A stretch of DNA of 64,000 nucleotides, from the NCBI RefSeq assembly GCF_000271485.2, contig NZ_AKVN02000001.1:3993501-4057500 (forward strand), given 5' to 3'. The stretch comes from Pelosinus fermentans DSM 17108. Lineage in GTDB: Bacteria; Bacillota; Negativicutes; DSM-13327. The notes beneath the pieces were generated by a model. That model was given only the letters and a program-made list of their open reading frames with translations, searched no databases and had not been told where the DNA came from. Positions 27,974 to 41,347 of the stretch are shown piece after piece; position 1 is the stretch's first letter; each line of letters begins with the position of its first letter. The translations under genes and the position numbers were made by a program.

Positions 27974-29482
27974 TTATACCATGTCAGCTGGATACTCTGT
28001 TACTTTATTTCTAGTTTCCTTACTCATATAAAGTGCTTTATCAGCGAAAGCTAGCAACTCATCTATGGAATCACCATTTTTAGGATAAGCTGCAACACCA
28101 ATACTTACGGTACAGCCACTTAGTTTCTTGGCACACTGCAAGCGTATCTCTTCCGCATAAGAAATAACCATTGTATCGGAGACATTCCGCAAAATAATTG
28201 CAAATTCGTCTCCGCCAAACCGAAATAAGGATCGAAATCCTACAATAGATTGTGCGATAACCGTAAATTCTTTTAAAATATCATCACCGGCTAAATGACC
28301 AGAAATATCATTTTGCTTCTTAAAATTATCCAGATCCAATACCATAACACCTAATGTAGTAAGAGATCCAGCTTGCAGCTCTCCTCGCAGTAATTCCACT
28401 ATTTTATCAAAAGATCTGCGATTATAAGCTCCAGTCAATGCGTCAATATCTGCCGCTCCTTTTAAGGTACTATGAACTTCTTCTAATTTTCGAATCGTAT
28501 CATTATAGCTTTGAATCATTTCTCCGAATTCAGCCGCATAGCCAGTTAAGGCAATCTTCTTATAGTTTCCTGTCCTGACAGAGCCAAAAGCTTCTATTAA
28601 TGTCTCAAAAGGCTTCATATATCGGCGCACCGTATACGTACCAATGATGACAACTATAAAAAACGTAAATATTGACACGGCCAATATCTGGTAAAGCATC
28701 ATATTACGATACTGTGTTATCTCGGCAGTAGGTGTACCCACAATAACATACCAATCCAATTGAGGCACCTTGCTGTATCCAATATAATTTTCAATTTCAG
28801 AATAATTCTTCATAATGGTTGAACCTGTCATGCCTTGTAAACTTTCAATGATTCCCCCTTTCTTACCAATACGTTCCTGAAGTGAATGATATACTACAAT
28901 CCCTTGCTGATCAGTAATTGCAATATATCCGTTTCGGCCAAAGGATTTATTATCAAACATCATTGCCAGTTTATTATCGTACAGCCAAACAGTCGCCACA
29001 ACCACACCAACTACAGTACCATCCTCAATAATAGGGGTGGAAATCGCAACTACTTCACGACCTTGAGCACTTTTATAAACGCCGCTGATGTATGTCTCTC
29101 CCTTTATTCCATGCTGAAAATAGTCTCTTTTTGATAAATTTACTCCTGATGTCTTTTCAGGCTGACTCGAAACAGAAACATTCCCTTCTTTATCAATAAT
29201 AAATATCGTATTGACTTCGGGAATCACTGCATTTATTTTATCAAGAAGCTCTTTATCCTTTCTAAGAGAAGGATCGGATGCAATGATTGCCATGGAAGCC
29301 TCAATATTTTTAAAATAGGCTAGTAACTGCTCACTAAGATTATTTGCAGCTTTTTCGTTGGTAGCCAATAACAACGAACTGGTATTTGCAAGGAAAAATC
29401 GATCAAAAGCAATAAATTGAATAAAACTGCTAATAATGACTAATGAGCAGAGTAATAGTATGAATTTATGCAAAAATCGCAT
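27974..29482 (-). CDS. Membrane diguanylate cyclase with dCache sensor
   Basis: A 502-residue protein starting at ATG 29482 after AAAGGAGG; an upstream TTG would swallow that site. Two membrane helices (about 5-28 and 270-293) bracket a periplasmic double Cache domain with the typical stretches IDKEGNVSVSSQPEKTSGV, DYFQHGIKGETYISGVY and YIAITDQQGIVVYHS. A short HAMP-like linker follows. The GGDEF domain carries an intact FRFGGDEFAII active site, so it should make c-di-GMP. The product-inhibition motif RxxD before GGDEF is missing (VGFR in its place), so feedback control by that site is not expected. Cache domains usually bind amino acids or organic acids. It is monocistronic. Confidence 0.92.
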   Translation of the reverse strand: MRFLHKFILLLCSLVIISSFIQFIAFDRFFLANTSSLLLATNEKAANNLSEQLLAYFKNIEASMAIIASDPSLRKDKELLDKINAVIPEVNTIFIIDKEGNVSVSSQPEKTSGVNLSKRDYFQHGIKGETYISGVYKSAQGREVVAISTPIIEDGTVVGVVVATVWLYDNKLAMMFDNKSFGRNGYIAITDQQGIVVYHSLQERIGKKGGIIESLQGMTGSTIMKNYSEIENYIGYSKVPQLDWYVIVGTPTAEITQYRNMMLYQILAVSIFTFFIVVIIGTYTVRRYMKPFETLIEAFGSVRTGNYKKIALTGYAAEFGEMIQSYNDTIRKLEEVHSTLKGAADIDALTGAYNRRSFDKIVELLRGELQAGSLTTLGVMVLDLDNFKKQNDISGHLAGDDILKEFTVIAQSIVGFRSLFRFGGDEFAIILRNVSDTMVISYAEEIRLQCAKKLSGCTVSIGVAAYPKNGDSIDELLAFADKALYMSKETRNKVTEYPADMV

Positions 29483-29602
29483 TGAATCTGATCCTCCTTT
29501 CAAAAACCGTATTATTTAAGACATTATTCTGCTTTTTTCAACAAAAACCTGCTATTATCTAGGAACTGCTCCAATGGTAAAATCTAGGGACAGAGTACTA
29601 TT

Positions 29603-38708: not shown

Positions 38709-38895
38709 TGTGCGAAAAAACGCTGACGAATCCCTTAAAGCAATAAAAGGAATCGAAAAAAATACTTTTCAAATTGCAGGTATCAAAATGAAAGGCAGCG
38801 AACTATTATTTAATAACATTATTCGCTATTTTTCGACTTATTTTTCAAAAACTCCATTTTTTTACATTCAACTCTTGCATTGGGGTGAACCAGTT

Positions 38896-40593
38896 TTGAA
38901 AACCTTCGTCCATAGAATTCGCAACTTCATTTTATTCATTTCCATATGGAAGATACTCTTACTCCCTGCTGGCGCATCTGCTCAAGAGATGCCCTTGCAA
39001 TTAAAATGGATACACCAATCTCAGCTTGCGGGTTATTATGCTGCTATTGAAAAAGGATTCTACCAGAACGATGGTTTGGGTGTTATTATGAATGAGGTTG
39101 TGCAAGAACAATCCTTTTTGGGCGTGGACAATTCTTCTTTAATTCGTCGACTCATTTACATTATTGGAGTTTTAACATTGGGTTTGATCTTATTTATCAT
39201 TTTTAATATCAAACTTAAAAATATGGTACGTAAACGGACATTTAGCCTGGAGAAAAAGTTTGATGAGCTCAAAGAGAAGGAAGAAATAATCCGTCACCTG
39301 GCATATTATGATACATTGACTAATCTGCCAAACCGTCTATACATGCAAGATATGATTTCAGCAAAAGCAGCCGCATCGCAAAAAGATGAAAATGGGTTCG
39401 CTGTTGTATTTGTTGACCTGGATGATTTTAAGCGAATTAATGATGCTATGGGTCATGCTGTCGGTGATGATTTTTTAAAAATAGTTACACAAAGAATACT
39501 GAGTTGTTTAAGGGATAATGATACCATTGCTCGTATCGGCGGTGATGAATTCTTTCTGTTATTACCCAACTTGGACAAAGAAAAAACAACATTGGCAGTG
39601 GAGAAAGTAATAAATGCAATTAAGGCACCATGCCTGTACCGGAAAAACCTTTATTATCTTTCAGCCAGTGCTGGGATTGCTTTTTCTCCCCAGAATGGTC
39701 AGCAATTTGATGACCTTATTAAAACCGCTGCTATGGCACTTTATGAAGCCAAGCGTCAGGGTAAAAACCGTTTTGATTTTTTCACTGAAAAAATGCAGCT
39801 CCAATCCATCAACCGTCTGGAAATGGAAATGGATTTGCACCAGGCAATCAACAATCATTCTGGATTGGTATTGCACTATCAACCTCAGATCTCTTATGAC
39901 GGCAGCATTGTGGGTGTGGAAGCTCTTGTACGCTGGAACCATCCAACGAAAGGGTTGCTGTATCCTGATTCCTTTATTCCTTTGGCGGAAGAAACGGGAC
40001 TTATTATTCCCTTAGGCGATTGGGTAACTCTTACTGCTTGCAAGCAAAATATACAATGGCAGAAATCCGGCTATCCTCCCATGAGGATTTCAGTAAATTT
40101 ATCAGTGAAACAATTTCAAAATCCCCACCTTCTGCAGAACATCCAAAGCATTTTACAAAAAACAGGCTTGCCACCTCATTTACTGGAACTAGAGATTACC
40201 GAAACGGTTGCAATTAGTCATGCGGATCTTACTCTATCTTTACTGAATTCGCTGCGCTCCATAGGAGTTCGCCTAGCCCTAGACGACTTCGGCGTAGGGT
40301 ATTCGTCTTTTATGTATTTGAGAAGTTTCCCCATTGATATTTTGAAAATTGATAAATCCTTTATCCGTGATATCACTTTAAATCAAGAAAGCCAAGCTAT
40401 TATCCAGGCCATTTTACAAGTTGCCAAAAGCCTGCGCTTCAAAGTAGTGGCAGAAGGGGTAGAAACCTCAGAACAGCTCGCTTCTCTAAAAAAGCTTGAT
40501 TGCCCTATCATGCAGGGTTATCTATTTAGCAGACCCGTACCTGCGGACAAAATCGATATCTTTTTGCAAGGCAAAAATCAATGGAATTATTAA
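38896..40593 (+). CDS. GGDEF-EAL protein with a truncated NMT1-type sensor
   Basis: The reading frame is open from 38710, but that point is inside a terminator; TTG 38896, six bases after GGGGTGA, begins a plausible signal sequence (KTFVHRIRNFILFISIWKIL...ASAQ). The mature part begins LQLKWIHQSQLAGYYAAIEK, the opening of an NMT1/THI5-like periplasmic binding domain. That domain is cut after about 40 residues and joins directly to a membrane helix (YIIGVLTLGLILFIIF). The GGDEF domain has IARIGGDEFFLL with an RDND I-site. The EAL domain has EALVRW, NLSVKQF, ITETVAI, DDFGVGYSS, KIDKSFI and VAEGVET. Both catalytic domains look intact, so it could make or degrade c-di-GMP. Length is about 565. Confidence 0.85.
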   Translation: MKTFVHRIRNFILFISIWKILLLPAGASAQEMPLQLKWIHQSQLAGYYAAIEKGFYQNDGLGVIMNEVVQEQSFLGVDNSSLIRRLIYIIGVLTLGLILFIIFNIKLKNMVRKRTFSLEKKFDELKEKEEIIRHLAYYDTLTNLPNRLYMQDMISAKAAASQKDENGFAVVFVDLDDFKRINDAMGHAVGDDFLKIVTQRILSCLRDNDTIARIGGDEFFLLLPNLDKEKTTLAVEKVINAIKAPCLYRKNLYYLSASAGIAFSPQNGQQFDDLIKTAAMALYEAKRQGKNRFDFFTEKMQLQSINRLEMEMDLHQAINNHSGLVLHYQPQISYDGSIVGVEALVRWNHPTKGLLYPDSFIPLAEETGLIIPLGDWVTLTACKQNIQWQKSGYPPMRISVNLSVKQFQNPHLLQNIQSILQKTGLPPHLLELEITETVAISHADLTLSLLNSLRSIGVRLALDDFGVGYSSFMYLRSFPIDILKIDKSFIRDITLNQESQAIIQAILQVAKSLRFKVVAEGVETSEQLASLKKLDCPIMQGYLFSRPVPADKIDIFLQGKNQWNY

Positions 40594-40643: not shown

Positions 40644-40688
40644 AAAATACCATTCACCTGCTTCTGGTAAGCAAGTGAATGGTATTTT
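40644..40688. terminator. Bidirectional terminator
   Basis: AAAATACCATTCACCTGCTT (40644) pairs with its complement ending 40688 (one mismatch), loop CTGGT, with T residues on either side. It separates the GGDEF-EAL gene from the convergent small gene. Confidence 0.88.
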
Positions 40689-40710: not shown

Positions 40711-40941
40711 TTACATTCTTCTCCAATTTTTATTTGATTCTTTAATCATGGCCGGGACTACTCTGACTGGGTGAACAGTTACAAAAAGGTATGCATCTTC
40801 TGAATGTGTTCTTTTTCTAAAGATAAATGGCAGGAATACCAATAACACAATTGCACCCACAATATATATCTCGGGCAAACTTAATATGAATAGACTGCTG
40901 ATAAAAAGAATAACCGTGATGATATACATACAAATGAACAT
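40711..40941 (-). CDS. Small membrane protein under riboswitch control
   Basis: A 76-residue protein with two close hydrophobic segments (about 1-23 and 26-42) and a cytoplasmic-looking basic tail ending KESNKNWRRM. GGAGGTG lies 11 bases before the ATG. I do not recognise a family. Its leader contains a c-di-GMP-I riboswitch at 41113-41185, a terminator at 41059-41099 and a strong promoter at 41207-41235, all in the right order. Its expression should therefore follow c-di-GMP. The convergent neighbour is a GGDEF-EAL protein. Confidence 0.72.
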   Translation of the reverse strand: MFICMYIITVILFISSLFILSLPEIYIVGAIVLLVFLPFIFRKRTHSEDAYLFVTVHPVRVVPAMIKESNKNWRRM

Positions 40942-41058
40942 TATAACTTTTTCACCTCCGATACTTCTAAACTAGTATTATCTACACTTGCTATGGCACC
41001 TAATCATCATACTCTGCTTTACTTCTTTCCATGATTCTCTACAGCTCCATATACTTAT

Positions 41059-41099
41059 AAAAGTGAACGATCAGAGATATACCCTGACCGTTCACTTTT
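41059..41099 (-). terminator. Terminator of the riboswitch expression platform
   Basis: AAAAGTGAACG (41059) pairs with CGTTCACTTTT (41089-41099), with further TCAG/CTGA pairing, followed by TTTTATAAG on the reverse strand. It starts 13 bases after the aptamer and about 118 bases before the gene. Confidence 0.85.
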
Positions 41100-41112
41100 A
41101 ATTAAACTAAAA

Positions 41113-41185
41113 CGGCAACCTGGCAATCATAGACCTCTGTCCTTAGACCCATAGCTTTGCGTCCCCATCTTTCGACAGGTTTGCC
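41113..41185 (-). ncRNA. Cyclic di-GMP-I (GEMM) riboswitch aptamer
   Basis: The reverse strand reads GGCAAACCTGTCGAAAGATG, then GGGACGCAAAGC, then GGGTCTAAGGACAGAGGTC and GATTGCCAGGTTGCCG. The GNRA tetraloop in the first arm, the invariant GACGCAAAGC core, the CTAAGGACAG receptor side and the terminal GCCAGGTTGCC all match the GEMM class I consensus, in order and spacing. The aptamer is about 73 nt, the normal size. The following terminator means ligand binding controls transcription of the 76-residue protein. Whether it is an ON or OFF switch needs the alternative pairings to be folded. Confidence 0.93.
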
Positions 41186-41206
41186 AAATATTTACTTACT
41201 TTCATC

Positions 41207-41235
41207 ATAATAATACTAAAAACTACATAAGTCAA
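41207..41235 (-). promoter_or_regulatory. Sigma-A-type promoter of the riboswitch transcript
   Basis: On the reverse strand TTGACT (41235-41230) and TATTAT (41212-41207) are separated by exactly 17 bases, about 20 bases before the aptamer. Confidence 0.8.
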
Positions 41236-41347
41236 GCATTTTTTAGGACTTAAACCCCATGATTCGAGATATAAGTCCTATTGCTCATCTATAAAAAAAG
41301 CCGTCTATCTCTCAATAAACAAGTCGAAGCCTCTTATTCTGATCCAT

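Follow-up and report, generated by a model that had tools for sequence, protein, structure and literature searches.

A predicted Cd1-type c-di-GMP-I riboswitch ahead of a small membrane protein gene in Pelosinus fermentans

In Pelosinus fermentans DSM 17108 we found a c-di-GMP-I (GEMM-I) aptamer, followed by a separate hairpin, in front of a gene for a 76-residue membrane protein. We consider it likely that this leader is a Cd1-type OFF riboswitch which acts by transcription termination and controls the gene of one small inner-membrane protein. Promoter, aptamer, hairpin and gene follow each other in the order claimed by the original prediction, and each was located on the minus strand, from 41235 to 40711 of the window, by which we mean the whole stretch of 64,000 nucleotides that was analysed (Table 1). 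That the riboswitch controls the small membrane protein, as was also predicted, is supported by the unit's own promoter and terminators and by the linkage of the aptamer to the gene in every orthologue.

Table 1. Features of the riboswitch-controlled unit and its surroundings, in positions of the window.
Feature	Position	Strand	Basis
Inverted repeat GGACTTA-N19-TAAGTCC, just 5' of the promoter; possible operator	41246..41278	.	Sole genome occurrence; like repeats in relatives
Sigma-70-type promoter TTGACT-17-TATTAT	41207..41235	-	Kept in six leaders
c-di-GMP-I (GEMM-I) aptamer, G at position 20	41111..41195	-	RF01051; near-invariant among orthologues
GCCGUUU, aptamer 3' end; proposed antiterminator strand with the presumed ligand-contacting CC	41110..41116	-	Pairs with 41087-41093 in folds lacking the terminator 3' arm
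Partner of the antiterminator strand, within the terminator 5' arm	41087..41093	-	AACGGU invariant in six leaders
19-bp terminator hairpin, short U-tract	41058..41100	-	Folding energy; conservation; missed by simple terminator scan
Shine-Dalgarno sequence GGAGGTGA	40952..40959	-	Sequence; kept in orthologues
76-aa membrane protein; hydrophobic residues 1-41, basic conserved tail 42-76	40711..40941	-	dN/dS; hydropathy; no known family
Inverted repeat AAAATACCATTCAC...GTGAATGGTATTTT; likely terminator between convergent genes	40644..40688	.	Sequence

Aptamer and promoter

The original prediction had named a GEMM aptamer, with an Rfam covariance search as its check. When the whole window was searched with cmscan, a single Rfam family, RF01051, exceeded its gathering threshold. 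The match scored 76.4 bits against a threshold of 35 (E 3e-13) and was full length, covering model positions 1-87 of 87. Position 20 of the aptamer, which we take to be Rfam position 11 from the Vc2 structure, is a G (in GGCAAAC) in the window and in all six leaders. The G20A mutant of GEMM-I binds cGAMP (PMC6274999), and judged by its sequence the aptamer is marked by this G as c-di-GMP-type, not cGAMP-type. By every test run, the RNA is a member of the known class c-di-GMP-I (GEMM-I) and is predicted to bind c-di-GMP. The aptamer hardly varies among orthologues, so little covariation was gained from them.

The promoter scored 10/12, more than the other three promoter-like sites of the region, and was kept across all orthologous leaders. 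The inverted repeat next to it is unique in the genome, with similar ones at the equivalent place in relatives, and may be the operator of a second regulator, in this case a protein. At the other end of the unit, a likely terminator separates the small-protein gene from its convergent neighbour, so the ORF is, as far as can be read from these signals, monocistronic, with its own promoter and terminators. A short upstream ORF between hairpin and gene (MERSKAEYDD) was not conserved in P. propionicus.

Putative terminator and candidate antiterminator

The whole hairpin is downstream of the aptamer and separate from it. Its folding energy was -27.6 kcal/mol (z -11.7). Across the six leaders 99% of the cells were paired, with one compensatory pair (G-C to A-U); the shuffle control on these six sequences was not significant. 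The simple terminator scan made no call here because the U-tract (UUUUAU) is short and lies partly within the stem, and it is weaker still in two relatives.

The 3' end of the aptamer, GCCGUU, can pair with AACGGU in the 5' arm of the terminator, and this AACGGU did not vary in any of the six. When the leaders were folded without the terminator 3' arm, the last bases of the aptamer paired with AACGG in 5/6 of them. In the window the duplex reached -8.1 kcal/mol and 182 of 5000 shuffles were as strong (about 4%), the helix being short. The CC in the antiterminator strand presumably contacts the ligand, as in the Vc2 structure. At low c-di-GMP, GCCGUU would pair with the terminator 5' arm, the polymerase would read through and the protein would be made. 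At high c-di-GMP, the ligand would keep the CC in the binding site; the terminator arm should therefore be freed, the terminator would form and expression would stop. Our best prediction is that the 76-aa protein is made at low c-di-GMP, and it would then be a product of the motile state. The layout of the leader, a separate terminator and an antiterminator overlapping the aptamer 3' end, is that of the Cd1 OFF arrangement (PMC9262584), and the class I c-di-GMP switches of C. difficile work as OFF switches (PMC6200980).

The same riboswitch could have ON polarity, or act mainly on translation or RNA stability, with the protein made at high c-di-GMP. Both layouts are used in Pelosinus: in a survey of 56 leaders, drawn from five Pelosinus genomes with further orthologues added, 34 had a separate terminator (OFF-like), in 21 the terminator was made with the 3' strand of the aptamer itself (ON-like) and 1 was unclear, as classified by a crude script that misplaced some terminators. 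The weak U-tract here also speaks for this reading. However, the position of the hairpin outside the aptamer argues against it, as does the absence of any pairing between the aptamer 3' end and the terminator 3' arm in the window (0.0 kcal/mol), and we regard it as unlikely.

The 76-residue protein

Between orthologues dN/dS was 0.10-0.27; the ORF is under purifying selection and the protein is genuine. Its tail (residues 42-76) contains 8 basic and 3 acidic residues. No other part is conserved as well, with a dN of about 0.05 where dS exceeds 1. The original prediction described a two-helix membrane protein. Its membrane part stood, since residues 1-41 are hydrophobic throughout; the two helices rest on hydropathy, with maxima of a 19-residue window starting at 1 and at 17-19, whereas AlphaFold drew one helix of residues 2-41 at low confidence (pTM 0.28). 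From a Pro/Glu turn and the positive-inside rule we infer a two-helix hairpin with the tail inside. The hydrophobic first 41 residues would most likely insert in the membrane, and the conserved basic cytoplasmic tail would act on some partner.

The protein gave no match over the cut-off in Pfam, NCBIfam or PHROGs and no sequence match in the PDB. It was rightly called unrecognised, and the family is unnamed as far as the first three libraries go.

A small hydrophobic protein with a basic tail may also recall the membrane-acting toxin of a type I toxin-antitoxin pair, and in C. difficile the antitoxin RNAs of such pairs lie behind the riboswitches cdi1_4 and cdi1_5 (PMC7699646). There, however, the riboswitch drives the antisense RNA and not the toxin. 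The unit described here has a strong ribosome-binding site, no antisense promoter above 9/12 was found at the locus, and the protein is without a match to known families and most conserved in its tail. A toxin is improbable on these grounds.

Orthologues and the riboswitch-gene cassette

Orthologues were found in five Pelosinus genomes and in one mislabelled MAG contig. Among 380 genomes of the class, presence was convincing only in the five Pelosinus genomes, and the plasmid records searched gave no match. P. fermentans JBW45 encodes a 93% identical protein at the equivalent locus; the further orthologues are from P. propionicus, an uncultured Pelosinus, a P. fermentans MAG and a MAG contig labelled Neobacillus. 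This last contig (JAQSXG010000524.1, L020), which was binned as Neobacillus, has the gene content of Pelosinus and represents MAG contamination. In the UBA6563 MAG copy a run of A is longer by a single A, which shifts the frame; as the coding pattern continues beyond it, an assembly error or recent mutation is the probable cause. Other families of the class gave weak matches (in G020, G058, G059 and others) that we regard as chance; the one in G020 covered the hydrophobic part only, within a 516-aa GGDEF/HD protein whose gene coincidentally also has an aptamer.

A c-di-GMP-I aptamer of 76-77 bits lies upstream of every orthologue, the leader on the Neobacillus-labelled contig being recognised by sequence, without a model score. 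Upstream of aptamer and gene sits a LysR/Fe-S gene pair. Three Pelosinus genomes of other species (G002, G005, G006) keep the LysR and Fe-S genes, and both the aptamer and the protein are absent from that locus. In this comparison of loci, aptamer and gene are present or absent together, as a single cassette.

The neighbouring GGDEF-EAL gene

The original prediction joined the riboswitch, the adjacent GGDEF-EAL gene and the cyclase at 27974 into one c-di-GMP circuit, and this part did not hold. The GGDEF-EAL gene (38710-40593) is convergent to the small-protein gene. In three related loci (L022, L023, L024) an EamA transporter gene and an Lrp/AsnC gene stand between the two, so the adjacency is secondary; it would most simply be the result of a deletion of these two genes. 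At the JBW45 locus the EamA, Lrp/AsnC and GGDEF-EAL genes are all gone and the riboswitch cassette is retained. Since c-di-GMP diffuses and 21 GGDEF matches occur in the genome, the presence of two GGDEF genes within 64 kb means little, and nothing links the riboswitch to either cyclase of the window. A dedicated circuit in which the riboswitch senses the GGDEF-EAL enzyme locally, as the physical adjacency of the genes in DSM 17108 might suggest, is very hard to credit against this secondary adjacency, the JBW45 locus and the number of GGDEF genes.

The GGDEF-EAL protein itself has an NMT1/THI5 substrate-binding-like start which after about 40 residues jumps to a membrane helix, and this truncation is common to its relatives. 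No aptamer precedes the sensor-GGDEF protein of the window (27974-29503). G002 encodes a close relative of it, and there the gene is preceded by a GEMM-I aptamer (L061) that carries A at position 20, and by a 55-aa ORF.

Other GEMM-I leaders in Pelosinus

The genome has ten c-di-GMP-I aptamers. The targets of the other nine, named from their sequences, are mostly ordinary: four chemoreceptor genes, a GGDEF-EAL, an HD-GYP, a CpaB-like and a PRC-barrel gene, and a 49-aa ORF before a GAF-GGDEF gene. In the survey of 56 leaders, small orphan ORFs of 43, 48 (one TM), 49, 55 and 56 aa recurred as the first gene. One of them (L045, in G002, on the reverse strand at 1716-1862 in reverse-complement coordinates) encodes a 48-aa protein with a single TM, which stands alone behind a GEMM-I aptamer and a separate terminator. 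It parallels the case in the window, with no evident similarity in protein sequence. The leaders of the 49-aa (L009) and 55-aa (L061) ORFs also resemble it in that a GEMM-I aptamer is followed by a small orphan ORF; they differ by an A at position 20, and their products have no evident similarity to the 76-aa protein.

An A at position 20 shifts the preference of GEMM-I to 3',3'-cGAMP. It was present in 3 of the 10 aptamers of the genome (L003, L008 and L009, at C1:2544737, 3530473 and 102487) and in 14 of the 56 leaders of the genus, which may mean that Pelosinus uses cGAMP as well. Our search for literature on c-di-GMP riboswitches of Pelosinus found nothing beyond one method paper.

Comparison with known riboswitches

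The switch itself is of a well-known kind and teaches nothing new. One riboswitch with one small gene is an experimentally simple case for assigning a function to a c-di-GMP output protein that has no known relatives. As a tentative proposal, to which we give rather less than even weight, the 76-aa protein could be the first of a new family of small membrane effectors that are produced only when c-di-GMP is low, with the conserved tail binding and tuning a motility, chemotaxis or signalling complex. If this were true, several small proteins of Pelosinus, independent of one another, would serve as riboswitch-controlled c-di-GMP outputs.

Among the closest known arrangements is Cd1 of the C. difficile flagellar operon, which shares with the leader described here the GEMM-I aptamer, the separate terminator and an antiterminator taken from the stabilising strand of the aptamer; OFF polarity is predicted for ours. 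Unlike Cd1, it would control one small orphan membrane gene and not a flagellar operon. The original prediction presented such a target as unusual for GEMM, a view that we do not share, since c-di-GMP-I riboswitches of C. difficile already precede the small hypothetical proteins CD1424, CD1981.2, CD1990.3, CD2309 and CD3368.2 (PMC11477304). The RNA class is identical and stands there, too, in front of a small hypothetical protein; in the genomes searched, orthologues of the 76-aa protein occur only in Pelosinus. Small orphan proteins recur behind GEMM-I aptamers in both Pelosinus and C. difficile, which suggests that they form an overlooked class of c-di-GMP outputs.
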